Positions 4,756 through 50,200 of a stretch of 51,335 nt of DNA are shown here, piece by piece. The notes beneath the pieces are model-generated. The model worked only from the letters and a program-made list of their open reading frames with translations, did not search any database and had not been told where the DNA came from. The stretch comes from Psychrobacter sp. PG1 (GTDB taxonomy: Bacteria > Pseudomonadota > Gammaproteobacteria > Pseudomonadales > Moraxellaceae), in NCBI RefSeq assembly GCF_014897815.1, contig NZ_JABUZG010000068.1, positions 1 through 51,335 on the forward strand. Direction: 5' to 3'. Both the position numbers and the translations under genes were made by a program. The number at the start of each line of letters is the position of its first letter. Positions within the stretch are counted from its first letter, which is position 1.

Positions 4756-4928
4756 TAGGGCGTGTTCTCATTTTTAACATGGTGATAAAAATGAGATAAA
4801 TTGTCGCCAAACAAGAAAGTAGCGCAGACAATATTGAGTTATTGACGGACTATTTGACGCTATTTGGCAAAATTTAGTCATCTCTAATCCATTTATAAGA
4901 CGATCGATTGAACTGAGGACACGCCCTA
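4756..4928 (-). repeat. MITE-like element, copy 1 (inverted relative to copies 2 and 3)
   Basis: This is a non-coding 173-bp element including flanking TA on both sides. Termini are TAGGGCGTGTTCTCA at the left and TGAGGACACGCCCTA at the right, which are near-perfect inverted repeats. The reverse complement aligns along its whole length with the copies at 12170-12343 and 47115-47288, sharing blocks such as CAATTTATCTCATTTTT and GGCAAAATTTAG. The TA at each end fits TA target duplication, as for IS630-type or IS427-group IS5-type elements. The parent transposon is not in the window. It occupies the gap between the GT8-like gene and the lipid A acyltransferase. Confidence 0.85.
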
Positions 4929-5018
4929 GTAACGTTCAAAGGTACAAAAGTAAGCCGATATTATCACAGCTATGATTCACGATATCTCTAAACGTTTGGC
5001 TAATTGTAAGGTCATTGT

Positions 5019-7887: not shown

Positions 7888-8240
7888 AATATAATTATCC
7901 AGTTGTCAGCCCAATTCGAAATACAATAATGCAGCCATTGCTGTACGATTCAAGCTATCCGCTAAAAACGCACAAATAACGCGATTAAGACAAATGGTCA
8001 TCACGTTGGCTACAGAAAATTTGGTGTAAACGCATATTATGCCTAATCTGCCCTTGTTATACAACCAGTGGCGTCCAATCAAAGCGTAGGAAAGTATCAG
8101 TAATGGGCGTATTTATTCAGTAACATTTGCATCGGGTTAAATATTGTCATTTTGCTTGAAAATATCAGCCACTGTGCACATATCAGGCTCACTTATAAAA
8201 TCTTATTAAAATTATTCTAATCATGTAAGGAATGCTACTC
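7888..8240. other. Divergent intergenic region between aspS and sohB
   Basis: This stretch of about 350 bp lies between two divergent genes and must hold both promoters. A TTATAAAAT block about 45 bp before sohB could supply a -10 element, but the -35 is not clear. There is no hairpin with a T-run, no repeat copy and no coding potential. A TAA at 8226-8228, in frame just upstream of sohB, rules out an N-terminal extension of that gene. Confidence 0.5.
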
Positions 8241-9221
8241 ATGCTTTTTCACCCTGCTAAGAACCCTGTTGAGCTACAAGTTGTTCATCTAAATAAAAGC
8301 CAAGAACAACGCCGTGAAGACTTAATGGAGGCAACTCAAGGTAAAGCCGCGCTTAAGCAATTCAAAAAAGTAATGGCTAAAAAAGCCAAGCAAGCATTGA
8401 AGGCAAAAAGCAAAAATAAGAAAAAAAACAGTGATAATAAATCACAAGTGTTCGTTCTCGACTTTGACGGTGATATCAAAGCCACGGCAGTCAAGCATTT
8501 ACGCGAAGAAATCAGCACATTAATCAGCAGTGCAAATAAAGGCGATGAAGTCGTGGTACGTCTTGAATCAGGCGGCGGGTTGGTTCATGGTTATGGTTTG
8601 GCAGCAGCGCAATTGGCACGTCTAAAAGAGGCTGGTTTAAAATTGACAGTCTGTGTCGATAAAGTCGCGGCCAGTGGCGGTTATATGATGGCTTGTGTGG
8701 CAGATAACGTAGTGGCTGCGCCCTTTGCTATTATTGGCTCAATCGGTGTGGTATCACAGTTGCCAAACTTTCATAAATGGCTAAAAAATCATGACGTCGA
8801 TTATGAGATGTTTACCGCTGGTGACTATAAACGTACCGTTACTATGTTTGGTGAAAATGATGCTGACGACCGTGCCAAGTACCAAGAAGAGCTTGAGCAA
8901 ACGCATGAGTTATTCAAACATTTCGTTAACACCTATCGTCCAGCATTGGATGTCGCAAAAGTAGCAACAGGCGAGCATTGGTATGGTGAAGACGCACTAA
9001 AATTGAATTTAATTGACAGCCTACAAACCTCAGACAGCTATATTTTAGAGCGTATGGACGACAATGAAGTCTATGCACTGCATTCACGTCAAAAGCCAAC
9101 GCTCGCCGAGAAGTTGGGATTGTCACAAGCTGCCGAAGCAACGGTGAATATTGCGATTGATAAGCTGCCAGATGCGCTAGCACGCTTTGATTTTAATAGC
9201 CGTTTAAATATCCTAAAGTAG
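8241..9221 (+). CDS. sohB: Peptidase family S49, SohB-type
   Basis: The 326-residue protein is a signal-peptide-peptidase-like serine protease with a Ser/Lys dyad. S145 lies in DKVAASGGYMMA and K197 in AGDYKRTVTMFG. The surrounding blocks (RLESGGGLVHGYGLAAAQL, GSIGVVSQLPNF, ATGEHWYG) match SohB closely. E. coli SohB starts with a membrane helix; here the protein starts with a soluble segment and a very lysine-rich stretch (residues 42-62), and an in-frame TAA just upstream excludes a longer form. I chose ATG 8241 because AAGGA at 8227-8231 lies 9 bp before it and is too close to the ATG at 8232. A hairpin follows the gene. Confidence 0.9.
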   Translation: MLFHPAKNPVELQVVHLNKSQEQRREDLMEATQGKAALKQFKKVMAKKAKQALKAKSKNKKKNSDNKSQVFVLDFDGDIKATAVKHLREEISTLISSANKGDEVVVRLESGGGLVHGYGLAAAQLARLKEAGLKLTVCVDKVAASGGYMMACVADNVVAAPFAIIGSIGVVSQLPNFHKWLKNHDVDYEMFTAGDYKRTVTMFGENDADDRAKYQEELEQTHELFKHFVNTYRPALDVAKVATGEHWYGEDALKLNLIDSLQTSDSYILERMDDNEVYALHSRQKPTLAEKLGLSQAAEATVNIAIDKLPDALARFDFNSRLNILK

Positions 9222-9439: not shown

Positions 9440-10717
9440 ATGCCAGCTATGTCTGAAAATACATTGATGTTTACCGCCACCGAACATGGTCAAGCCATGT
9501 ATGCCAAAGTCAAAGCATTTATCGAAACTCATATTGAACCAATAGAAGCACAGTTTTGGGCGGATTGTCATGCGCAAAACCCAGACGGTAATTGGAAAAA
9601 TTGGCAATGGCCAGAAAAATATGAGATTTTGCGTAAACAAGCACGCGAAGCCGGTCTATGGAATTTATTTTTGCCAGATGACACGCTAGGGGCAGGGCTG
9701 TCGGTGACCGATTATGCACCGATTGCCGAGCTCACTGGACGTAGTTTATTAGCGCCTTATGTGTTTAACTGTAATGCCCCCGATAGTGGCAACATGGAGC
9801 TATTATGGCGCTATGGTTCAGAGGAGCAGCAAGACAAATGGCTCACACCAATCTTAGAAGGTAGAACGCGTTCGGTATTTTGTATGACTGAGCCTGATGT
9901 CGCCTCCAGTGATGCGACCAATATGCAAGCGACAGCTGTGGTTGATGGCGATGAGATTATTATCAATGGCAGTAAATGGTGGTCATCGGGTCTGGGTGAC
10001 CCTGCGGTCGACATTTTGATTGTGATGGCGTACACGCCTGATGAGAATAAAGACCGTCATCATCAACATTCGATGGTATTGGTCCCAGCAAAGACAGCGG
10101 GTGTCAACATCGAGCGCATGCTCAAAGTCTTTGGCGATTATGATGCGCCGCATGGCCATGGTGAAGTCAGCTTTGATAAAGTACGTGTGCCCGTCAGTCA
10201 CTTTATCGGTGGTGCAGGTATGGGCTTTGAGATTGCACAAGGTCGCCTAGGACCAGGTCGTATTCACCATTGCATGCGCTGTATTGGCGCTGCCGAAAAG
10301 TCGCTAGAGCTGGCTGTTAAGCGCGGCATGGAGCGTACGGCTTTTGGTAAGCCGTTATTACAACTGGGTGGTAATTTTGAGCGTATCGCTGAGGCGCGTA
10401 TTAAGATTGACCAAGCGCGTTTATTGACATTATATGCAGCGCAAAAAATGGACGCGCAAGGCACAAAAGCGGCATTGACTGAAATCTCTGCTATTAAAGT
10501 GGTTGCGCCAACCGTGCTACAAGAAGTGGTCGATATGGCGATTCAGATTCATGGTGGCATGGGCGTTTGCCAAGATACGATGCTACCTGCATTCTTTGCG
10601 CAAGCACGAGCGCTGCGCTTAGCCGATGGTCCTGATGAAGTGCATAAAACGATGATTGCTAAGTTAGAATTAAAGCGTCAGGGTTTTATTCGCCCTTCTA
10701 AACCTGGTAAATCCTAA
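9440..10717 (+). CDS. Acyl-CoA dehydrogenase family protein, ACAD10/ACAD11-like
   Basis: The 425-residue protein has the full acyl-CoA dehydrogenase fold. FCMTEPDVASSDATNM and NGSKWWSSGLGDP form the flavin/substrate region, AQGRLGPGRIHHCMRCIG the middle, and the C-terminus reads IQIHGGMGVCQDTML then RLADGPDEVH. At the place of the usual catalytic glutamate (YEG in MCAD) this protein has D396 in ADGPDEVH, as in ACAD10/11-type enzymes. Known relatives (LvaC; the dehydrogenase half of ACAD10/11) work on phosphorylated 4-hydroxyacyl-CoA made by an APH-like kinase. Such a kinase is encoded 153 bp downstream. Two starts are possible, 9440 or 9449 (MSENTLM); AGGAAAAGGA precedes both. The exact substrate is inferred only. 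Confidence 0.9.
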   Translation: MPAMSENTLMFTATEHGQAMYAKVKAFIETHIEPIEAQFWADCHAQNPDGNWKNWQWPEKYEILRKQAREAGLWNLFLPDDTLGAGLSVTDYAPIAELTGRSLLAPYVFNCNAPDSGNMELLWRYGSEEQQDKWLTPILEGRTRSVFCMTEPDVASSDATNMQATAVVDGDEIIINGSKWWSSGLGDPAVDILIVMAYTPDENKDRHHQHSMVLVPAKTAGVNIERMLKVFGDYDAPHGHGEVSFDKVRVPVSHFIGGAGMGFEIAQGRLGPGRIHHCMRCIGAAEKSLELAVKRGMERTAFGKPLLQLGGNFERIAEARIKIDQARLLTLYAAQKMDAQGTKAALTEISAIKVVAPTVLQEVVDMAIQIHGGMGVCQDTMLPAFFAQARALRLADGPDEVHKTMIAKLELKRQGFIRPSKPGKS

Positions 10718-10784
10718 GTTTAGTTATTCATAAATTTATAGAAACTGATTTAAATAACCATCTGTTTAACTTAATTTCTCATTG

Positions 10785-10816
10785 AAATTCACTATTACAC
10801 CGTTAATAGTGAATTT
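10785..10816. promoter_or_regulatory. 13-bp hairpin/palindrome between ACAD-like and kinase genes
   Basis: AAATTCACTATTA at 10785-10797 is the exact inverted repeat of 10804-10816, with a 6-base loop. No T-run follows, so it is not a typical terminator. It could be an operator or an mRNA-stabilising structure between the two genes of the same pathway. The kinase start follows 55 bp later. Confidence 0.5.
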
Positions 10817-10870
10817 TCAGCCCTATACTCACTGATAAAACATAATTGACCACAGGATAAGGAATGTCAT

Positions 10871-12148
10871 ATGGCAACTGCTAATCAAAGCAAAACTACC
10901 ATTGAAGAAGTAGCTAATAAAATCTTAGATAAAGGCGGTGAGGTTCGTGAGGGTGAAGAGCTTGATACCAAAGCGGTCAGCTCATGGCTACGTGATCAGG
11001 GTGTGGATATAAAAGGCGAACCTACCGTTACTCAATTTTCAGGTGGTGCCTCAAACTGGACCTATCGTTTGCAATATGAAGGCGAAGGTAAAAGCCAAGA
11101 TTTAATTTTACGCCGTCCACCAAAAGGTACCAAAGCAAAATCAGCACACGACATGGTGCGCGAATATACGGTTCAAAAATCCTTAGAAGATGCTTATCCT
11201 TATGTACCTAAAATGGTCGCGCTATGTACCGATGAAGATGTTATCGGCGCTGACTTTTATGTCATGGAGCGTATGGAAGGTATCATTCCTCGTGCCAATT
11301 TGCCAAAAGGCATCGATTTAAATGAAGAGCAAACGCGTGCATTATGTACCAATGTCATCGATGCTTTGATTGAATTGCATCAAGTCGATTATAAAGCGCA
11401 TCCTGATTTGGTCCATCTTGGACGCGGTGAAGGTTATTGCGAACGTCAAGTAACTGGCTGGGACAAGCGTTATGTCAAAGCCAAAACGTCTAACGTCCCA
11501 AGTTTTGCCTTAGTCCGTCAATGGCTCGGTAAGCATACGCCTGCTGATAGTAAGACTTGCCTCATTCATAATGATTGGCGCTTTGATAATGTGATTTTGG
11601 ATGCAGCAGATCCGACCAAGGTGATCGGCGTACTCGACTGGGAGATGGCGACCTTGGGCGATCCTTTGATGGATTTGGGCAGCGCATTGGCGTATTGGAT
11701 TGAAGAAGATGACAACATCATTATGCAGCAGTCACGCCGTCAGCCCACCCATTTAAAAGGCATGATGACTCGCGATGAGGTGGTTGCTTATTATCTTGAG
11801 CAGACAGGTCTAGAAATAGACAACTGGACGTTTTATGAAGTGTTTGGGTTATTCCGTCTAGCGGGTATCGTTCAGCAGATTTATTACCGCTACTATCATA
11901 AACAAACGACCAATCCCGCCTTTAAAAATTTCTGGATTATTGTGCACGTATTACATGCCAAATGTCTTAAACTGATTGCTCAATATGAAGGTGAGATTTT
12001 GTTTACTAGCCGAGTACAGCCGCATCTACAGGATATGGGTGTTGATGCTGCGATGATTGAGCAGTTGCCAAGTCCTATACAGGCTGTGATTAAAGGTATT
12101 TTGCCAAAGAGCTATTTTGGACAAAGCGCACCTAAAGCTGAAGAGTAA
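10871..12148 (+). CDS. APH-family phosphotransferase, ACAD10/11 kinase-domain-like
   Basis: The 425-residue protein has an aminoglycoside-phosphotransferase fold. The nucleotide loop is FSGGASNWTYRL near residue 55, the catalytic loop is CLIHNDWRFDNVI (H233, D235), and the metal-binding aspartate is D256 in GVLDWEMATLGDPLMDLG. DWEMATLGDP is characteristic of the kinase half of human ACAD10/11 and of bacterial LvaA, which phosphorylate the hydroxyl of 4-hydroxyacyl-CoA. It is not expected to be an antibiotic resistance gene. Together with the upstream ACAD-like gene it forms the two halves that are fused in animals. The ATG at 10871 follows CAGGATAAGGA. A MITE copy begins 22 bp after the stop. 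Confidence 0.88.
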   Translation: MATANQSKTTIEEVANKILDKGGEVREGEELDTKAVSSWLRDQGVDIKGEPTVTQFSGGASNWTYRLQYEGEGKSQDLILRRPPKGTKAKSAHDMVREYTVQKSLEDAYPYVPKMVALCTDEDVIGADFYVMERMEGIIPRANLPKGIDLNEEQTRALCTNVIDALIELHQVDYKAHPDLVHLGRGEGYCERQVTGWDKRYVKAKTSNVPSFALVRQWLGKHTPADSKTCLIHNDWRFDNVILDAADPTKVIGVLDWEMATLGDPLMDLGSALAYWIEEDDNIIMQQSRRQPTHLKGMMTRDEVVAYYLEQTGLEIDNWTFYEVFGLFRLAGIVQQIYYRYYHKQTTNPAFKNFWIIVHVLHAKCLKLIAQYEGEILFTSRVQPHLQDMGVDAAMIEQLPSPIQAVIKGILPKSYFGQSAPKAEE

Positions 12149-12169
12149 GCAGCTTAAAAATTAAAAATC

Positions 12170-12343
12170 TAGGGCATATCCTCAATTGAATCGAGCATTC
12201 TCTAAATGGGTTAAAAATGGCTGAATTTTGCCAAACTGCGTCAAATAGCTTATGAATATCTTGATATTATTTGCGCTATTTTCCTTGTTTGGCGGCAATT
12301 TATCTCATTTTTTTCACCATTTTTAAAATGAGGACAAGCCCTA
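12170..12343 (+). repeat. MITE-like element, copy 2
   Basis: This 174-bp copy, including the flanking TA on each side, has termini TAGGGCATATCCTCA and TGAGGACAAGCCCTA. It is full length, same orientation as copy 3 and inverted relative to copy 1. It splits the kinase gene from the histidine phosphatase gene by adding most of the 240-bp gap, so it may interrupt or modify what was a continuous operon. Confidence 0.87.
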
Positions 12344-12388
12344 GTACGTTGAAAAATTATAAGAGTGCGATTAATAAGGCAGTATTTT

Positions 12389-13147
12389 ATGACAACCATA
12401 CTTTTGGCCCGTCATGGTCAAGCGTCATTTGGACAAGAGAATTACGATCAACTCTCAGAGCTGGGTGGCAAGCAAGCGCAGATGCTAGGTCAGCATTACG
12501 CGACGACTCAGCGTCGAATTGATGCGATTTTTACTGGTAGTTTGGTTAGGCAGCAAGACTCTGCACATCATTTTTGGCAGCGTTATCAGTCATTTTTTGA
12601 TAGCGATAGCAATATCTCTAGTAAGCCTGCGATCGATATAAGTGCACCGGATAGCTATGTACTGCCACAATTTGATGAATTTAATCATAAGGACGTGTTT
12701 ATAAAGTCTAATCCTGCTTTCATGAGTAAAGGTGCTATTGCCGCTGAGATTGCGCAAGCAGAAGTGCCGTCTATGCGTTTAGCGGAGCTGTTTGATGCTG
12801 CAATGCAGCGCTGGCATGCGGGTGGGGATGACGGTGATTATATTGAGAACTGGCCACAATTTAATGAGCGGGCAAAACAAGCGCTTGAGCAAGTGCGTTT
12901 GCAAGTGGCTAATCTGAATTTAGAGCGTGATAGTACGGTGCTGGTGTTTACTTCGGGCGGCATTATTTCGGCTATTACCGCGCAGTTATTACAACAAGGC
13001 AGTCAGACTGCGTATCAAATTAATAAAAGCTTGGTTAATACGGGCGTGACGTCTATTACTTTAAAAGCGCAGAGTACACGGCTATTGTCTTTAAATGAAT
13101 ACAGTCACTTATTTTCTGATGGCAAACGCTTCGTGACGTGGCGATAA
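12389..13147 (+). CDS. Histidine phosphatase superfamily protein, second catalytic His absent
   Basis: The 252-residue protein begins MTTILLARHGQASFG, with the RHG motif and the phospho-accepting H9. The long middle part (residues 60-170) is acidic and helical. Near the C-terminus, where phosphoglycerate-mutase-like enzymes have a second histidine (SHGG), this protein reads VFTSGGIIS, so S189 replaces it. The protein may still form a phosphohistidine but with altered chemistry. I chose ATG 12389 because AAGG lies 9 bp upstream and because the RHG motif then starts at residue 8; an earlier start at 12365 is less likely. It follows the kinase gene beyond the MITE, and its place in the cluster suggests removal of phosphate from a cluster intermediate. 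That role is inference. Confidence 0.85.
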   Translation: MTTILLARHGQASFGQENYDQLSELGGKQAQMLGQHYATTQRRIDAIFTGSLVRQQDSAHHFWQRYQSFFDSDSNISSKPAIDISAPDSYVLPQFDEFNHKDVFIKSNPAFMSKGAIAAEIAQAEVPSMRLAELFDAAMQRWHAGGDDGDYIENWPQFNERAKQALEQVRLQVANLNLERDSTVLVFTSGGIISAITAQLLQQGSQTAYQINKSLVNTGVTSITLKAQSTRLLSLNEYSHLFSDGKRFVTWR

Positions 13148-13242
13148 CATAGCATGTGATGGCCGGTGAGACATCAAGGTCATAATTCAGCCACAATTAA
13201 GCCGTGATTAACATCAGGATAAAATGATCACTCTAAACACGC

Positions 13243-13271
13243 AGCAGATTTTTATGTTATTAAAATCTGCT
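13243..13271. promoter_or_regulatory. 10-bp palindrome upstream of the SDR gene
   Basis: AGCAGATTTT at 13243-13252 is the exact inverted repeat of 13262-13271, with a 9-base loop. TATGATAAT follows directly and could be a -10 region. It may be a weak terminator for the phosphatase gene or an operator at the SDR promoter. Confidence 0.45.
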
Positions 13272-13374
13272 ATGATAATTGTTGAGTATTTTTATGACAG
13301 ACAAGCCGCACTTATCAATTTGCGATATTATAGACTGTCAACTTCATATAATATGGATGTAAACAGGACGTTCT

Positions 13375-14244
13375 ATGCAAAATAAATTGATCAATTTAGT
13401 CACTAAAAGCGCCAAACAAAGTAAAAATCAGCTATTTAGCGCGATTGTGCCCGCACGATACCTAAAAGGTTTAAATAAGCAGCAGATTGGTCGTGGTAAA
13501 ACAGTATTAATCACGGGTGCCAGCTCAGGACTGGGCGAAGGCATGGCAAGATTGTTTGCTAAGCTTGGCTATAATTTGGCGATTTGCGCGCGTCGTACCG
13601 ACCGTCTAGAAAGTCTACAATCAGAGTTAATGGCAGCGTATCCTGATATTCGTGTTGAATATCGAGCATTAGATGTCAGCGACTATGATGCCATATTCAA
13701 TGTATTTGATGCGTTCGCAACTGACTTTGGTCATATCGATCGTGTGGTGGTCAATGCAGGAGTCGGGGATAGTCGCCGTATTGGTAAAGGGCGCTTCGAT
13801 ACCAACCGCCGCACCGTTGAGATTAACTTTGTCTCTGCGCTCGCGCAATGTGAAGCGGCGATGAATATATTCCGCGCACAAAACAGCGGTCATCTGGTGG
13901 TGATATCAAGCATGTCAGCAATGCGTGGACTGCCTAAGCATTTGACCGCTTATGGCGCAAGTAAGGCAGGTCTGGCTCATCTGGCAGAAGGCATTCGTGC
14001 TGATATGTTATTAACCAAATTGCCCATTAAAGTCTCGACCATCTATCCGGGTTATATCCGTACTGAAATTAATGAAAATGCCAAATCACTACCGTTTGAA
14101 GTGGATGCAGATACGGGTACCAAATCCATCGTTGCAGCGATTGAGGCTGGAGTAGATGAAGCTTGTGTACCAAGTCTACCGTGGTCTATTGTCGGTCAAG
14201 CAATGAAGCATTTACCATTGCAAGTGGTTAATAAAGTCAATTAG
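13375..14244 (+). CDS. Short-chain dehydrogenase/reductase (cluster oxidoreductase)
   Basis: The 289-residue SDR carries the cofactor motif TGASSGLG at residues 47-54, VVNAGVGD in the middle, and the catalytic Y193-GAS-K197 with the serine in ISSMSA. CARRTDR after the second strand favours NADP(H). About 40 basic and hydrophobic residues precede the Rossmann fold, longer than in minimal SDRs. It is the last gene of the plus-strand fatty-acid cluster (ACAD, kinase, phosphatase, SDR). In the levulinate pathway an SDR (LvaD) reduces a 4-keto-acyl-CoA to the 4-hydroxy form; a similar role here is only an inference. A very long hairpin terminator follows. Confidence 0.88.
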   Translation: MQNKLINLVTKSAKQSKNQLFSAIVPARYLKGLNKQQIGRGKTVLITGASSGLGEGMARLFAKLGYNLAICARRTDRLESLQSELMAAYPDIRVEYRALDVSDYDAIFNVFDAFATDFGHIDRVVVNAGVGDSRRIGKGRFDTNRRTVEINFVSALAQCEAAMNIFRAQNSGHLVVISSMSAMRGLPKHLTAYGASKAGLAHLAEGIRADMLLTKLPIKVSTIYPGYIRTEINENAKSLPFEVDADTGTKSIVAAIEAGVDEACVPSLPWSIVGQAMKHLPLQVVNKVN

Positions 14245-14288
14245 TAACTATTTGACTTCATTGCTTTGGTATCAACAGCAATAAAGTC

Positions 14289-14350
14289 AAAAAGAAGACA
14301 ATAAAAAACCCTCAACCTTAATGCTGAGGGTTTTTTATTGTCTTCTTTTT
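14289..14350. terminator. Bidirectional terminator with perfect 26-bp stem
   Basis: The 26-base arms (14289-14314 and 14325-14350) are exact inverted repeats around a 10-base loop. The GC core is CCCTCA/TGAGGG, flanked by A-rich and T-rich tracts, so T-runs follow the core on both strands. It lies between the convergent SDR and fadD genes. Confidence 0.93.
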
Positions 14351-14370
14351 AAACATCTAAAATCTATGCA

Positions 14371-16071
14371 CTACAGGGTTTGAGGGTTATCGGACAGATG
14401 CTTTTCACGTAACTTTTGACGCAATATTTTACCCACATTACTCTTTGGCAACTCGCTGACAAATTCGATATGACGTGGGCATTTATAACCAGTCAAATTG
14501 TCCAAAGCAAACTCTTTAATATCACTCTTGGTAACATTATTATCAGCAGGGACGATATAAATTTTGACTGCTTCGCCTTGGTGGTCATCAGGAATACCGA
14601 TCACTGCGCAATCAATGATGCCTTTATAATCTAGCATGACTGACTCGATTTCATTTGGGAAGACGTTAAAGCCTGAAACCAAAATCATATCTTTTTTGCG
14701 ATCAAGTAAAGTGATATAGCCCTGTTCATCCATACTGATGATATCGCCAGTACGGAAGTAACCATCACTGGTAAAGTCATTGCTATTGTCTTTATTAAAA
14801 TAGCCTGAAGTGATGTTTGGGCCTTTAATGCACATCTCGCCAGCTTGATGTAAGCCGACACGATTACCTTCATCATCAACGACAATGATATCTACGCTAG
14901 GGACTGGTATACCAATCGTACCGTTAAACTTGCGATCAGTGATGACGTTAGCCGTACCAGCTGCAACCCCTTCAGTCATCCCCCAACCTTCGACCATCGG
15001 GCAGCCAGTGACTTCTAACCAGCGAGCAGCTGTTTGTTCAGTTGCTGCCATACCACCTGCTTGTGAGATGCGCAGTGAGCTAAAGTCCAAATCTTTAAAG
15101 GTTGGTTGGTCAAGTAAGCCTTTAAACAAAGTATTCACTGCTGGCAATATATGGAACGGCTGTTTTGACAGCGTTTTAACAAAGCCTGGCATATCGCGTG
15201 GGTTAGGAATCAAGATAAAGGTGTAACCCGAGCGCATGCCTAACAGGGTCAGCATAAAGGCAAAAATATGATACAGCGGTAACGCCATGACCATATTGAT
15301 ATAGACCTCATTAATATCTGAGGTGATAGGGCGGTACCAAGCTTCTGACTGCATCGCAGCGGCGACAACGTTACGCTGAGTCAAAACAGCGCCTTTCGAC
15401 AAACCAGTCGTTCCACCAGTATATTGCAAAATTGCTTTTTGTTGCAGTGTGGTTTTTGGTGCTTGGATAGGCAAATTTTTGCCTTTCTTCAGCACATCAG
15501 GAAACTTGGTCACATCGTATTTAGGGTCATTCAGGTTATATTTAGGCACTAAGCGTTTGACCTGACGGATAACCGTATTGACCAAAATACCCTTTAGCCC
15601 CATCATATCGCCCATTTTCGAGAGGACAATACGCTTGATGTCGGTTTCTTCAATGACTTGTTCGAGCGCTTGAGCAAAGTTATCAACCACAAAAATAACC
15701 TGAGCACCCGAGTCGTTCAACTGATGGCGCAGCTCACGACCGGTATACAGTGGGTTAACAGGGGTACACACGTAGCCCGCTCGCAAAATACCAATCATCG
15801 TTGGCAGATATTGCGGCACGTTTGGCATCATGAGTGCGACCACACTGCCTTTAGGAATGCCTTGCGCTTGTAACCATGCGGCAACGGCCAGTGAGGCTTT
15901 ATCCACATCACCATAAGTATGAGTGACACCCATACAAATAGTCATAGGATGCATACGAAAACGATTGAAACATTCCTCATACAGCTCTATGAGGCTCTCA
16001 TATTGATCAGGATTAATGGTCTTGGGTACGTTTTCTGGATATTGCGCCAACCAAGGCTTATCTACTGTCAT
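14371..16071 (-). CDS. fadD: Long-chain fatty-acid--CoA ligase, tandem paralogue A
   Basis: The 566-residue AMP-forming ligase activates fatty acids to acyl-CoA with ATP at the cytoplasmic face of the inner membrane. The P-loop YTGGTTGLSKGA (from residue 217), EGWGMTEG, GYFRTGDI and the C-terminal KSNVGKILRQKLRE, with the adenylation lysine, are all present. A second, very similar gene lies directly upstream at 16709-18406 on the same strand, so this is a tandem duplication like the fadD1/fadD2 pair of pseudomonads. It has its own upstream region of over 600 bp and is probably transcribed separately. ACAD- and SDR-encoding genes face it across a strong terminator. Confidence 0.95.
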   Translation of the reverse strand: MTVDKPWLAQYPENVPKTINPDQYESLIELYEECFNRFRMHPMTICMGVTHTYGDVDKASLAVAAWLQAQGIPKGSVVALMMPNVPQYLPTMIGILRAGYVCTPVNPLYTGRELRHQLNDSGAQVIFVVDNFAQALEQVIEETDIKRIVLSKMGDMMGLKGILVNTVIRQVKRLVPKYNLNDPKYDVTKFPDVLKKGKNLPIQAPKTTLQQKAILQYTGGTTGLSKGAVLTQRNVVAAAMQSEAWYRPITSDINEVYINMVMALPLYHIFAFMLTLLGMRSGYTFILIPNPRDMPGFVKTLSKQPFHILPAVNTLFKGLLDQPTFKDLDFSSLRISQAGGMAATEQTAARWLEVTGCPMVEGWGMTEGVAAGTANVITDRKFNGTIGIPVPSVDIIVVDDEGNRVGLHQAGEMCIKGPNITSGYFNKDNSNDFTSDGYFRTGDIISMDEQGYITLLDRKKDMILVSGFNVFPNEIESVMLDYKGIIDCAVIGIPDDHQGEAVKIYIVPADNNVTKSDIKEFALDNLTGYKCPRHIEFVSELPKSNVGKILRQKLREKHLSDNPQTL

Positions 16072-16708
16072 ACTTAGCGTCCTTAAATGTTGTGATACGT
16101 TAAGGTTCTATAAAAGAGTAGTCACATCCTTGTCAACAATATAAATCATCGCCTTGAGAGCAATGGATTGTCGCGTGCTATCCTATTGATTCACAGACTG
16201 CTAAAATACGGTGACCTTTATATAAATTATTTAACTACAAGCTCATTTCACTATAAAAAGCAGTGGTCTAAATACAGTAAACAGCTGGTTACTATTGTCC
16301 TTACTAAGAAAAGCACCACTTGCTCATAAACTGATCTGAATTGAACGACTATCGACTCACACTAATAAAAAATAGCGTGACTTATTTTGGCAACACATTA
16401 ACATAACTACAATTGATATTGTTATTTTTATACAAGAACTTGATAGTTTATAATTAAGTTTGATAAAGCAAAAAATATATGTTGTAACAGCATAGAGGAT
16501 AAGCGGTTAGCAACAAGGTGCGAACGGTATTTCTCTTGGAAATTTGTGAAATATTATAAGAATCATCTATTTTGTAAGAAAAGTTGTTACGTAAAAGCAT
16601 TAACATTATAGTTACAAATGAATGACTTTCTGTATAAGAATGATAGATTCACATAAAAAAAGCGCTCTACATATGATGTAAAACGCTTTTTGATAATGAT
16701 TTCTTTAT
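16072..16708. other. Intergenic region between the two fadD genes
   Basis: This 637-bp gap contains the promoter region of the downstream fadD. Bases 16118-16203 align loosely with 18451-18543 upstream of the other fadD (shared GTCACATCC/GTCATATCC, TGTCAA and GCGTG...TATTGA...CTGCT blocks), so the duplication carried regulatory DNA with it. The rest is AT-rich. I see no coding potential apart from the terminator at its 3' side. Confidence 0.6.
16657..16691 (-). terminator. Rho-independent terminator after fadD paralogue B
   Basis: AAAAAGCG pairs with CGCTTTTT; an inner TAC/GTA pair extends the stem. On the minus strand the T-run follows, 18 bp after the stop of the fadD gene at 16709. Confidence 0.8.
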
Positions 16709-18406
16709 TTACAATTGTGGGTTGTCCGACATATGCTTTTCACGCAGTTTTTGACGTAATACTTTACCCACATTACTCTTTGGCAACTCGCTGACAAATT
16801 CGATATGACGCGGGCATTTATAGCCAGTCATATTGTCCAATGCAAATTCTTTAATGACGTCCTTGGTGACATTGTTATCGGCAGGGACGATATAAATTTT
16901 GACCGCTTCACCTTGATGCTCATCGGGAATACCAATCACCGCACAATCAATAATACCATCACAATCTAGCATCACTGATTCAACCTCATTTGGGAAGACA
17001 TTAAAGCCTGAAACCAAAATCATGTCTTTTTTACGGTCTAATAATCTAAAGTATCCTTTTTCATCCATGCTGACGATATCGCCAGTGCGAAAGTAGCCAT
17101 CTGCCGTAAAGTCATCACTACTGTCTCTGTTAAGATAACCTGAGGTTACGTTAGGACCTTTGACACACATCTCACCAGCTTCGTTTACACCAACGCGATT
17201 GCCTTCATCATCGATGACAATGACATCGACACTAGAGACAGGCACACCAATCGTACCGTTGAACTTGCGATCAGTGATGACGTTAGCGGTACCTACAGCG
17301 ACCCCTTCTGTCATACCCCAACCCTCAATCATAGCGCAACCAGTGACTTCTAACCAGCGTGCCGCTGTCTGCTCAGTTGCTGCCATACCACCTGCTTGTG
17401 AGATGCGTAGTGAGCTAAAGTCTAACTCTTTAAAGTTTGGATGATCAAGTAAGCCTTTAAACAAGGTATTCACCGCTGGCAATATATGGAACGGCTGTTT
17501 TGATAAGGTTTTAATGAATCCTGGTATATCACGTGGATTAGGTATCAAGATAAAGGTGTAGCCTGAGCGCATGCCGAGTAGACTGAGCATAAAGGCAAAA
17601 ATATGATAGAGCGGTAACGCCATGACCATATTGATATAGACCTCATTAATCTCTGACGTAATCGGTTTGGTCCATGCTTCTGATTGCATCGCAGCCGCGA
17701 CGATATTGCGCTGCGTTAAGATAGCCCCTTTAGATAGTCCTGTTGTGCCACCTGTATACTGTAAAAATGCTTTTTGATCTAATTGCATTTTTGGTTTATG
17801 GAAAGGAAGGCTTTTGCCTTTCTTCAGCACATCAGGAAACTTGGTCACTTCGTGCTTAGGGTCATTCAACTTGTACTTAGGCACTAAGCGTTTGACCTGA
17901 CGAATGATGGTATTCACTAAGATACCTTTTAAGCCCATCATGTCGCCCATTTTTGATAGGACAATACGCTTAATATTGGTCTCATCAATGACTTGTTCGA
18001 GCGCTTGAGCAAAGTTATCAACCACAAAAATAACCTGAGCGCCAGAATCATTTAATTGATGGCGCAGCTCACGACCAGTGTAAAGTGGGTTAACTGGGGT
18101 ACACACATAACCCGCCCGCAAAATACCAATCATCGTTGGCAGATATTGCGGCACGTTTGGCATCATAAGTGCGACTACACTGCCTTGAGGCAGCCCCTGC
18201 GCCTGCAACCATGCAGCAACGGCAAGTGAAGCTTTATCAACATCATCGTAGGTATGGGTCACGCCCATACAGATACTCATAGGGTGCAGACGAAAGCGCT
18301 CAAAGCATTCTTCGTACAGCTCCATGATGCTGCTATATCTATCGGGGTTGATAGTTTTTGGTACACCATTAGGATAATGGGCAAGCCAAGGTTTATTCGG
18401 CGTCAT
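16709..18406 (-). CDS. fadD: Long-chain fatty-acid--CoA ligase, tandem paralogue B
   Basis: The 565-residue ligase has the same motif set as its neighbour: YTGGTTGLSKGA, EGWGMTEG, GYFRTGDI and KSNVGKVLRQKLRE. The two proteins differ at 13 of the first 60 residues but at only 9 of the next 137, so divergence is uneven. The two copies may differ in chain-length preference or in regulation, as reported for pseudomonad FadD1/FadD2. Both have the same start context (TCATA/TCATAC with AGCGTCCTT on the complement), supporting ATG at 18406. It is preceded by a long non-coding stretch and followed by its own terminator. Confidence 0.95.
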   Translation of the reverse strand: MTPNKPWLAHYPNGVPKTINPDRYSSIMELYEECFERFRLHPMSICMGVTHTYDDVDKASLAVAAWLQAQGLPQGSVVALMMPNVPQYLPTMIGILRAGYVCTPVNPLYTGRELRHQLNDSGAQVIFVVDNFAQALEQVIDETNIKRIVLSKMGDMMGLKGILVNTIIRQVKRLVPKYKLNDPKHEVTKFPDVLKKGKSLPFHKPKMQLDQKAFLQYTGGTTGLSKGAILTQRNIVAAAMQSEAWTKPITSEINEVYINMVMALPLYHIFAFMLSLLGMRSGYTFILIPNPRDIPGFIKTLSKQPFHILPAVNTLFKGLLDHPNFKELDFSSLRISQAGGMAATEQTAARWLEVTGCAMIEGWGMTEGVAVGTANVITDRKFNGTIGVPVSSVDVIVIDDEGNRVGVNEAGEMCVKGPNVTSGYLNRDSSDDFTADGYFRTGDIVSMDEKGYFRLLDRKKDMILVSGFNVFPNEVESVMLDCDGIIDCAVIGIPDEHQGEAVKIYIVPADNNVTKDVIKEFALDNMTGYKCPRHIEFVSELPKSNVGKVLRQKLREKHMSDNPQL

Positions 18407-47114: not shown

Positions 47115-47288
47115 TAGGACGTGTCCTCAATTCAATCAATTACTCTCTAAATGGGCTAAACATGGCTAAATTTTGTTAAACATCGTCAAATAGCTTATCA
47201 ATATCTCGATATTAACTGTGCTATCTTCCTTGTTTGACGGCAATTTATCTCATTTTTATCACCATTTTTAAAATGAGGATACGCCCTA
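47115..47288 (+). repeat. MITE-like element, copy 3, inserted at the dnaE stop codon
   Basis: This is a 174-bp copy including TA at both ends, with termini TAGGACGTGTCCTCA and TGAGGATACGCCCTA. It aligns along its length with copies 1 and 2. Its right edge overlaps the last three bases of dnaE: the TAG stop is made of the flanking TA and the first base of the element. It also fills most of the gap to the Hpt gene and so forms part of that gene's upstream region. Confidence 0.9.
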
Positions 47289-50200
47289 GCTATAATGGAA
47301 ATGCAAATTGTCTTCACTAACCATATTCTTTAATTGCTGTAAGTTGTCATCGTTGGGGTAGATGCGCCAGTGCTCAGATAGCCCTACGTTAGCGATGCCA
47401 AATTTCTCATAAATGCTCAGTCCCAGTGGCAGACAATTATCATTAATGGAGGTGTCGGTATTGCTCAAAGCATTATTGGCATAACTTTGATTAGCACTAT
47501 TTTGATTCATGTCATTTTCTAGCGCCAATAAATCATTGCCATTTTCATCATACAGACTTCCGCCCATCGCAGCATCGTAGCCACTATTGCCATTAAAGCT
47601 GCCACTTTGCTCGTCTTGCTCGTTGTCATGAGAAAGTTTTGGTGCTGGAATAATGCTGGCTTGTGCGGACTTGAGTAACGGTTGCAGTCGCGTCAGCAGA
47701 TTGATATCGCTGCCATGAATTTTGATACTGATTTTTTTCATCCATCTTAGGCGCGCATCGACCATGCTCATGGCACTATCAAGACGGGCAAATAAACGCC
47801 CATCACGCTCACGAATGCTGCCTTTGATGATGACGACTTCATCAATTTTCAACTGTTCTTTGACACGATTAAAACGCTCGGCATAGCAGCTTACTTCCAG
47901 CCTTGAAGTGCCGTCATCTAAAATAATGACGTTGCGATTACCAAAGTTGGCAATATCAATAATCAATCCGGCGAAATAACAGCTACCGTTATAGCCCGTG
48001 TCAGTCAGTTTGTCGAGACGAGTGCCTGAGGTATAGCGTTTTAACTCATCCAAGTATTCATTGATTGGATGACCCGTCAAATACAATCCCAACGTGTTCT
48101 TTTCTGCTTTTAAACGATGTTTATCACCCCAGATTAGCTCTGGCGTCATCACTAACGGTGGCGCGGCGACGACACCGTCCATTTCACCGAATAAATCCAT
48201 CATGCCGATTTCGCGGTTTTGACGGTCTTGTTCAGCAGCTTGTACGGCACTTGGCAGCTGGCTCATTAATGCGCCGCGAATCTCGTACGCTTCATCGGCT
48301 GGTAAATCTGGTCGCAGGGTAGCTGCAAAGTCATCAAAACAACCAGCGTTTATCAGTCCCTCTAAAGTGCGTTTATTAACCTTTTTGATATCAACGCGGC
48401 GGCAAAAATCATATAGATCTTTAAACGGACCTTCACGGCGGCGTGCATCAACGATAGACTCAACCGCACCTTCACCAACGCCTTTAATCGCACCCAAGCC
48501 ATAAATGATATTGGTTGGGGTATCGGCAACAAAATGCCACTCACTGCGATTTACCGATGGATTAACAACGGTTAAATCAAAGTTTTCACGGCAATCATTG
48601 ATAAAGAACACCACGTTGTCAGTGTTGTTCATATCTGATGTGAGTACGGCTGCCATAAACTCAGCAGGATAGTATTGCTTTAGATACGCGGTCTGATAAG
48701 CGAGTACACCATAAGCAGCCGAATGCGAGCGGTTAAAGCCGTAACCGGCAAACTTCTCCATCAAATCAAACACACCGCCTGACGTTGCTTCATCAATACC
48801 TTGCTCTGTTGCACCAGTAATAAAGATATCGCGCTGCTTAGCCATTTCTTCAGGTTTCTTTTTACCCATGGCACGGCGAAGCATATCTGCGCCGCCCAAG
48901 CTGTAGCCTGCCATGACCTGCGAGATTTGCATGACCTGTTCTTGATAGACAATAACGCCATTGGTATTTTCTAAAATCGGCTCAAGATTGGGATGATCAT
49001 AAATGACTTCCTCACGACCATGTTTGCGGTCGATATACATCTCTACCATGCCAGCGTCCAGCGGGCCTGGGCGATAAAGCGCACACATGGCGATCACATC
49101 TTCGATATTGGTCGGTTGTAATTTCGCCAGATATTTTTTCATGCCCATACTTTCTAGCTGAAAAACGGCAGTGGTTTTGGCATCTTGCAAGAGCTTGTAG
49201 GCTTTTTTATCATCTAATGGTAGGTCTTCTAATACCAACGCATCTTTGCCTTCTTTGGCACGGCGCAGATTGATATTTCTGACCGCGGCATCAATCACCG
49301 TCAAGTTACGTAGACCCAAGAAGTCAAATTTTACTAGCCCAACGGCTTCAACGTCATCTTTATCAAACTGGCTGACACGGTGACCTTCATCATCACAATA
49401 AATCGCGCTAAAATCTGTGATTCTGTGCGGCGCAATCAATACGCCACCCGCATGTTTACCCACGTTCCGGCAAATACCTTCAAGCTTAATCGCCATTTCC
49501 CACACTTCAGTGGCATCTTCGTAATCCATATTGTCAGGATTGGAGATTAAGTCTTTGAGCTGCGGCTCTTGTTCGAGTGCTTGACTGAGGGTGATACCTG
49601 GTGTTTTGGGAATAAGTTTCGACATTTTGCTGGCAAGGAAATAGGATTTACTTTGTGCGCGCGCGACATCTCGAACTACCGCTTTTGCTGCCATCGTACC
49701 AAAGGTAATGATTTGCGAGACCGCTTCACGACCATAGGTTTGCGCCACATAATCAATAACGCGGTCGCGACCTTCAATACAAAAGTCAATATCGAAATCG
49801 GGCATGGAGACACGCTCAGGATTTAAGAAGCGCTCAAATAATAAGTCGTAATGAATAGGGTCGAGGTCGGTAATATTGAGCGAATAAGCAACGAGCGAGC
49901 CTGCACCAGAACCACGACCAGGACCGACTGGTACGCCATTGGCTTTTGCCCAGCGGATAAAGTCCATGACGATGAGGAAGTAACCAGGAAAGCCCATTGA
50001 AAGAATAACCTTTAGTTCATACTCTAAGCGGTCATCATATCTTTGTCGAAAGTCGTTCCAATTATCGCTACGTTTCTCGATGGGGAATAGTTTATCTAGT
50101 CGATTATTCAGACCCCGTATTGATTCTGCACGGAAAAACGATTCAATCGTCTCACCTTCGGGCACAGGAAAGTCAGGTAGTACGTTGATACCAAGCGTCA

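Follow-up and report, generated by a model that had tools for sequence, protein, structure and literature searches.

In this work, we analyzed a 51,335-nt stretch of DNA (hereafter the window) from Psychrobacter sp. PG1, a bacterium with a genome of 3.49 Mb, and found that four of its genes represent a conserved gene set recurring in several bacterial phyla. These genes encode an acyl-CoA dehydrogenase (ACAD), an APH-fold kinase, a histidine phosphatase (PHOS) and a short-chain dehydrogenase/reductase (SDR). We consider it probable that they form a lipid-catabolism module that works by phosphorylation of a hydroxyacyl-coenzyme A (hydroxyacyl-CoA) and subsequent elimination of the phosphate, as described for mammalian ACAD10 and ACAD11 and for the LvaA/LvaC pair of the lva operon. 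A previous sequence-only reading of the window had placed the four genes in a row on one strand with two fadD genes facing them, and this layout was confirmed with respect to open reading frames (ORFs), coordinates and Pfam families. The genes of the row are as follows:

9440..10717, + strand: ACAD10/11-type acyl-CoA dehydrogenase, 425 aa, predicted 4-phosphoacyl-CoA phosphate eliminase (R269, HCMR 277-280, D396)
10871..12148, + strand: APH-fold kinase, 425 aa, predicted hydroxyacyl-CoA kinase of clade A (R192, D235, N240)
12389..13147, + strand: PHOS, atypical histidine phosphatase, 252 aa (R8-H9-G, R54 and E97 present; S189 in place of the second catalytic His)
13375..14244, + strand: SDR oxidoreductase of the PRK08251/NF006099 type, 289 aa, the final gene of the conserved module (NCBIfam match)

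The gene order is conserved across bacterial phyla

The comparison was based on 80 named loci, the best 80 of 537 confirmed relatives, several of which are metagenome-assembled genomes (MAGs); being the best matches to the window kinase, they favour its clade and Moraxellaceae. The order ACAD-kinase-PHOS-SDR, with an additional SDR (SDRa) allowed, was found in 50 of the 80 loci, thus indicating that the row is more than a chance arrangement. The previous reading had made its case depend on a conserved gene order, and on this point it held. Within 4.5 kb of the kinase gene, ACAD was present in 71 loci, PHOS in 61 and an SDR of the PRK08251 type (at least 45% identical) in 66, and PHOS started no more than 113 nt past the kinase match in 60 of the 61 loci bearing it.

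Broader surveys gave a similar picture. Of 60 genomes of the genus, 55 have the kinase, two of them with broken frames. Among 185 class-level genomes, 25 carried the kinase, 14 PHOS and 23 ACAD, and PHOS lay within about 4 kb of the kinase or ACAD in 12 of the 14 (the own genome included; the exceptions are G076 and G166). In 398 Pseudomonadota genomes, PHOS was present in 70, the kinase in 131 and both in 68 (Fisher p 4.8e-37, uncorrected for relatedness and genome size); the kinase was located no more than 6 kb from PHOS in at least 35 of the 70 PHOS genomes, and all 36 such pairs were on the same strand. The exact order was found in records of Pseudomonadota, Myxococcota (L129) and Actinomycetota (L174), PHOS adjoins the kinase in a Bacteroidota MAG (L147) as well, and plasmid records of Deinococcus, Streptomyces, Sulfitobacter, Caballeronia and Ideonella provide further instances. 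Variants also occur, such as the sohB-PHOS-kinase-SDR arrangement in genomes G423, G603 and G298 (genera g181 and g182).

The intergenic gaps in the window row are 153, 240 and 227 nt. No + strand terminator was detected in them by a consensus scan, and a strong hairpin follows the SDR gene (region 14230-14400, 171 nt; minimum free energy −56.3 against a shuffled mean of −27.6 kcal/mol, z −8.9), so that co-transcription of the four genes is possible. The gaps are too short for LvaB, a 12-kDa protein according to PMC6692424, and no ORF of this size was found in the three gaps, LvaB not having been sought elsewhere in the genome; this agrees with the previous remark that no LvaB-like small partner is visible in the cluster.

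The Pfam families detected were Acyl-CoA_dh N, M and 1 in ACAD (1.2e-33 for the C-terminal domain), APH in the kinase (1e-50), His_Phos_1 in PHOS (5.4e-15), adh_short in the SDR (4.7e-41) and AMP-binding in both fadD products. The PHOS frame is listed from a GTG at 12365 (12365-13147, 260 aa), and the start common to its relatives is the ATG at 12389 (252 aa); the closest named relatives of PHOS are Psychrobacter proteins.

The dehydrogenase carries residues of the phosphate-eliminating type

In the PDB, the window ACAD scores highest with 4hr3 (507 bits) and with ACAD11 (414-410 bits), far ahead of the next family at 139 bits, and its identity to ACAD11 is 51.1% (206 of 403 aligned residues). 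In the alignment, R626, H634-R637 (HCMR) and D753 of ACAD11 correspond to R269, H277-C278-M279-R280 and D396. In an alignment of 72 ACADs, one from the window and the others from 71 of the 80 named loci, all 71 rows with a residue at the position in question have R269, H277, M279 and R280; C278 is kept in 69 of 71 (one row is gapped) and D396 in 72 of 72. According to PMC12440821, R626, the HCMR motif and D753 are common to ACAD11 and LvaC, the HCMR motif is essential for ACAD11 activity, and the FAD is not terminally reduced while ACAD11 eliminates phosphate. Judged by its alignment, the window ACAD thus possesses the Arg, HCMR and Asp residues that mark the phosphate-eliminating ACADs of the ACAD10/11-LvaC type, and by analogy it is predicted to eliminate phosphate from 4-phosphoacyl-CoA.

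The kinase bears ACAD11-type residues but belongs to a sister clade

The window kinase and the ACAD11 kinase share 106 of 293 residues (36.2% identity), a figure to be set beside the 29% that PMC11342911 reports between LvaA and the ACAD10/11 kinases. R176 (a CoA contact), D220 and N225 of ACAD11 correspond to R192, D235 and N240. The published R86 of ACAD11 cannot be mapped with certainty, but an Arg beside the alpha-C Glu is conserved (R97-E98 in the window). Moreover, R97, E98, R192, H233, D235, D239, N240 and D256 are kept in all 81 kinases aligned (the window and the 80 named loci).

A maximum-likelihood tree with a midpoint root was built from 64 rows, comprising the window, 27 of the 80 named loci, 28 class-sample kinases, five plasmid kinases and three PDB fragments. 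It separates clade A (38 rows, including the window, 9o56 and Deinococcus) from clade B (21 rows, including ACAD11 and 3dxp), each with support of 100/99. Sequence comparison therefore suggests a kinase that has the ACAD11-type residues yet sits outside the ACAD11 clade, in its sister. The kinship with ACAD10/11 and Lva proposed in the sequence-only reading stands as far as the catalytic residues of both enzymes are concerned, and has to be loosened for the kinase clade; the check suggested there, on which family the kinase clusters with, is answered by a clade for none of whose members we found a characterised substrate. PHOS accompanies clade B kinases too (G216, G073, G146, Sulfitobacter and Caballeronia), hence the partnership is not bound to one clade.

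The AlphaFold 2 model of the kinase (mean predicted local distance difference test score, pLDDT, 85.8) matches the fold of 3dxp best, followed by Rv3168 and the 25-hydroxysteroid kinase. The nearest solved kinase by sequence, PDB 9o56 (245 bits), was absent from the best 50 fold matches. An antibiotic-resistance role was rejected on the basis of the NCBIfam APH(3') score (27.6, far below the cut-off of 205) and the gene context; a profile of the kinase gave 229-396 bits for ACAD11 and its kin and no more than 33 bits for antibiotic kinases. No relative of the kinase was found in viral contigs. At the C-terminal end, the Psychrobacter kinases exceed most relatives from other genera by about 40-70 residues, with an open frame of 432 aa in the window vs. 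356-392 aa in the six closest relatives outside it.

PHOS has a serine in place of the second catalytic histidine

The previous description of the phosphatase as atypical can now be made definite: its second catalytic His is replaced by Ser. A profile alignment places S189 of PHOS against the His of CobC (3hjg), HFP (9mmh) and PSP1 (4ij5), and this fourth phosphate-pocket residue is Ser in 62 of 62 cluster PHOS and in 59 of 59 further distinct copies (61 distinct sequences minus two matching the window or a named copy). In all the same copies, R8, the nucleophile H9 of the RHG motif, R54 and the acid E97 are invariant. Compared with branch 1 of the histidine phosphatases (PhoE, CobC, RosC and HFP 9mmh), PHOS has the RHG motif, the second Arg and the acid Glu, and it lacks the fourth-pocket His, with Ser189 standing where HFP has H149, a residue called conserved in all superfamily members (PMC12051542). 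In the own genome, His_Phos_1 was found in three more proteins, all of which have the His in the matching motif, as read by eye. The AlphaFold 2 model of PHOS (pLDDT 89.8) has a histidine-phosphatase fold.

Solo PHOS genes were seen in several genomes among twenty fetched stretches, so the Ser signature is not exclusive to kinase-adjacent copies and marks a subfamily, adjacent or not. Our search of the open-access literature yielded no account of a histidine phosphatase without the second histidine; passages of PMC5757984 mention a solitary histidine phosphatase with no comparable cluster.

The SDR

The SDR matches NF006099 (PRK08251 type) with 414 bits against a cut-off of 253, and nothing here shows a likeness to LvaD, the counterpart previously assumed for it. 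SDRa, a different SDR, was present in 26 of the 80 named loci, often between ACAD and the kinase. It was considered as a hidden fifth gene of the own genome and rejected, the best match being just 35%.

The proposed pathway and its alternatives

In the pathway that we propose, a hydroxyacyl-CoA would receive a phosphate from the kinase on its hydroxyl group, most likely at C4, and expulsion of this phosphate by ACAD would yield a 2-enoyl-CoA that can enter beta-oxidation. Keto and hydroxy forms are likely interconverted by the SDR, and PHOS likely strips phosphate from stalled intermediates, be they phospho-acids or phospho-acyl-CoAs. The kinase and eliminase chemistry is suggested by analogy with ACAD10, ACAD11 and LvaA/LvaC, and bacterial orthologues of ACAD10 parts are active in vitro according to PMC11342911. 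The C4 position is a weaker part of the prediction; together with the chain length, the role of the SDR and the action of PHOS on phospho-acyl species, it is put forward with less support. A candidate substrate of PHOS would be the 4-phospho free acid formed on loss of the thioester. Cells making 4-phosphohexanoyl-CoA also yielded 4-phosphohexanoate, likely by hydrolysis of the CoA adduct in the view of the authors (PMC11342911), and since such an acid should be a dead end for ACAD, a clearing role appears to us the most likely one for PHOS.

Several observations weigh against the proposed pathway. The kinase lies outside the ACAD11 clade at only 36% identity, so the position attacked and the substrate could differ, and the 25-hydroxysteroid kinase shows that the APH fold can phosphorylate other alcohols (PMC8449060). 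The loss of the pocket histidine may make PHOS weak or inactive. PHOS is absent from 16 of the 71 full-flank loci, several of which have the SDR directly after the kinase, and no listed kinase lies within 6 kb of PHOS in up to 35 of the 70 PHOS genomes. The SDRa found in the 26 loci has no clear orthologue in the own genome, and with gaps of 153-240 nt the window genes may not all be co-transcribed.

The first alternative concerns PHOS, which may be a degenerate phosphatase that binds the kinase and restrains or supports it, in LvaB's place and in parallel to the HAD domain of ACAD10. Though rather doubtful, this idea draws on the exceptionless loss of the pocket residue, on the position of PHOS close behind the kinase, and on the Pseudomonas citronellolis cluster, where a histidine phosphatase is present and LvaB absent (PMC6692424); a precedent comes from ACAD10, whose HAD domain no longer has its full catalytic motif and reduces the activity of the kinase (PMC11342911). 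However, a functioning catalyst would be expected to keep H9, R8, R54 and E97, as the very same copies do without exception; in many genomes the PHOS gene is not near that of the kinase, and some clusters manage without it.

A second alternative, in our opinion somewhat less plausible still, is that the substrate of the kinase-ACAD pair is not a 4-hydroxy fatty acid but some other hydroxylated compound, such as a sterol side chain or an acyl-CoA hydroxylated at another position. The separate kinase clade would fit, as would the presence of the 25-hydroxysteroid kinase (9fsg) among the fold neighbours and a small protein in locus L083, which we take to be SCP2-like and possibly an acyl or sterol carrier; it has 104 aa and is encoded between PHOS and the kinase (8515-8829) in a genome of the same order. 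On the other hand, the 25-hydroxysteroid kinase is much more distant from the window kinase (41 bits) than ACAD11 is (170 bits), and in its active site the ACAD matches ACAD11 and, according to PMC12440821, LvaC. Finally, an ordinary operon of unrelated fatty-acid genes with a resistance or house-keeping kinase, for which one could cite the APH family membership and the generic annotations of the plasmid records, is highly improbable given an order kept across phyla with one particular ACAD type and the APH(3') and profile scores reported above.

Returning to the phosphorylation-elimination pathway, its broadest form would be a widespread, ancient phospho-hydroxyacyl-CoA operon in which the dedicated Ser-PHOS subfamily serves as a checkpoint that either restrains the kinase or clears stalled phospho-acids. 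We offer this only tentatively; if true, PHOS would be an independent bacterial counterpart to the degenerate HAD domain of animal ACAD10.

Comparison with known systems

The module shares with mammalian ACAD10/ACAD11 the Arg, HCMR and Asp of the ACAD active site, the catalytic residues of the kinase and the two-step logic. It differs in having separate proteins and, in the window, a kinase of the sister clade; where ACAD10 has a HAD domain, the window module has a histidine phosphatase and an SDR. With the lva operon it has in common an APH kinase, an ACAD, an SDR and, in Psychrobacter, a nearby CoA ligase. Unlike lva, the window cluster has no LvaB-sized gene, includes a phosphatase and an SDR of the PRK08251 type, and its fadD genes, which lie on the other strand, are not conserved.

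The closest published parallel is P. citronellolis LA18T, in which a histidine phosphatase lies next to homologues of LvaA, LvaC and LvaD with no LvaB (PMC6692424, 2019). The kinase, phosphatase, ACAD and SDR are together there as in the window, but in the order kinase-phosphatase-ACAD-SDR and with a levulinate regulator, transporter and ligase in addition; the phosphatase is alike by its description in that paper. The authors proposed that it removes phosphate from 4-phosphovaleryl-CoA, and, citing Rand et al. 2017, they mention lvaABCD homologues in Alpha-, Beta- and Gammaproteobacteria. The idea of a phosphatase next to a kinase of the lva type has therefore been published before and is not new, and such a phosphatase is no stranger to lva-type clusters, contrary to the previous reading. 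In contrast, our open-access literature search turned up no description of the gene order as conserved, of the kinase clade as a separate one or of the Ser signature of PHOS.

In genus g181, ACAD was found at E ≤ 1e-90 in 96 of 99 genomes, and no recognisable lva operon was seen in eight fetched stretches, one of which (L302) has the order ACAD-kinase-PHOS. Inspection by eye of the small ORFs beside the class-sample kinases, made with no family scan, revealed no obvious LvaB. The P. aeruginosa locus PA1827-PA1831 is presumably a matching one, and a literature search yielded no paper on it. The 25-hydroxysteroid kinase of Sterolibacterium (9fsg) is also an APH-fold kinase whose phosphate is then eliminated to give an alkene, but it is distant in sequence and acts on a steroid alcohol, and the lyase is given as unknown in PMC8449060.

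The mammalian ACAD10/11 route was established by two papers, in 2024 and 2025. By analogy, the bacterial module likely lets cells burn hydroxylated fatty acids through addition and subsequent expulsion of phosphate. With separable parts in Acinetobacter, Psychrobacter, Shewanella, myxobacteria and actinobacteria, the kinase, the eliminase and the control step become individually testable. The Ser-for-His exchange in PHOS is a sharp, falsifiable feature: the protein has either a functional variation on a textbook active site or is a phosphatase that has become a regulator. Furthermore, many annotations such as "phosphotransferase", "histidine phosphatase" and "SDR" could become readable as one pathway.

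Neighbouring genes and repeats

The other features around the cluster are as follows:

8232..9221, + strand: S49 peptidase (SohB-like), upstream of the cluster (family match)
12168..12345, no strand assigned: insertion resembling a miniature inverted-repeat transposable element (MITE), about 176 bp with inverted ends, between the kinase and PHOS genes (present or absent across relatives)
14296..14343, no strand assigned: strong bidirectional hairpin in the SDR/fadD interval, likely terminator (folding energy vs. shuffles)
14371..16071, − strand: fadD, long-chain acyl-CoA ligase, facing the cluster, outside the conserved module (ORF and family match)
16709..18406, − strand: second fadD

Two fadD genes do face the cluster, as noted in the sequence-only reading, but their inclusion in the pathway cluster is not borne out by other genomes. 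Within flanks of up to 8 kb, eight of the ten Psychrobacter loci have a facing fadD, which the 70 other named loci all lack; in two of these 70, a fadD-like gene lies upstream on the same strand. The fadD genes are thus outside the conserved module and local to Psychrobacter. The tandem copies (14371-18406) are 87.6% identical over 564 residues and likely represent a duplication; in the fetched flanks of the ten Psychrobacter loci, two copies were present in three and one copy in five.

The S49 (SohB-like) gene flanks the cluster in Psychrobacter and PHOS in four fetched genomes of family f2 (G541, G423, G603 and G298), as seen in the window and in L253 and L255-L257. Its presence beside the cluster or PHOS in both families hints at an old shared neighbourhood.

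The MITE-like copy between the kinase and PHOS genes is present in the window and in L098 and absent in L099, L101 and L104. The repeat has inverted ends (CTAGGGC.T.TCCTC) and occurs in the window also at 47115-47289 and 4756-4929; at least 41 match rows were counted in the own genome, with 40 of 108 candidates scored.

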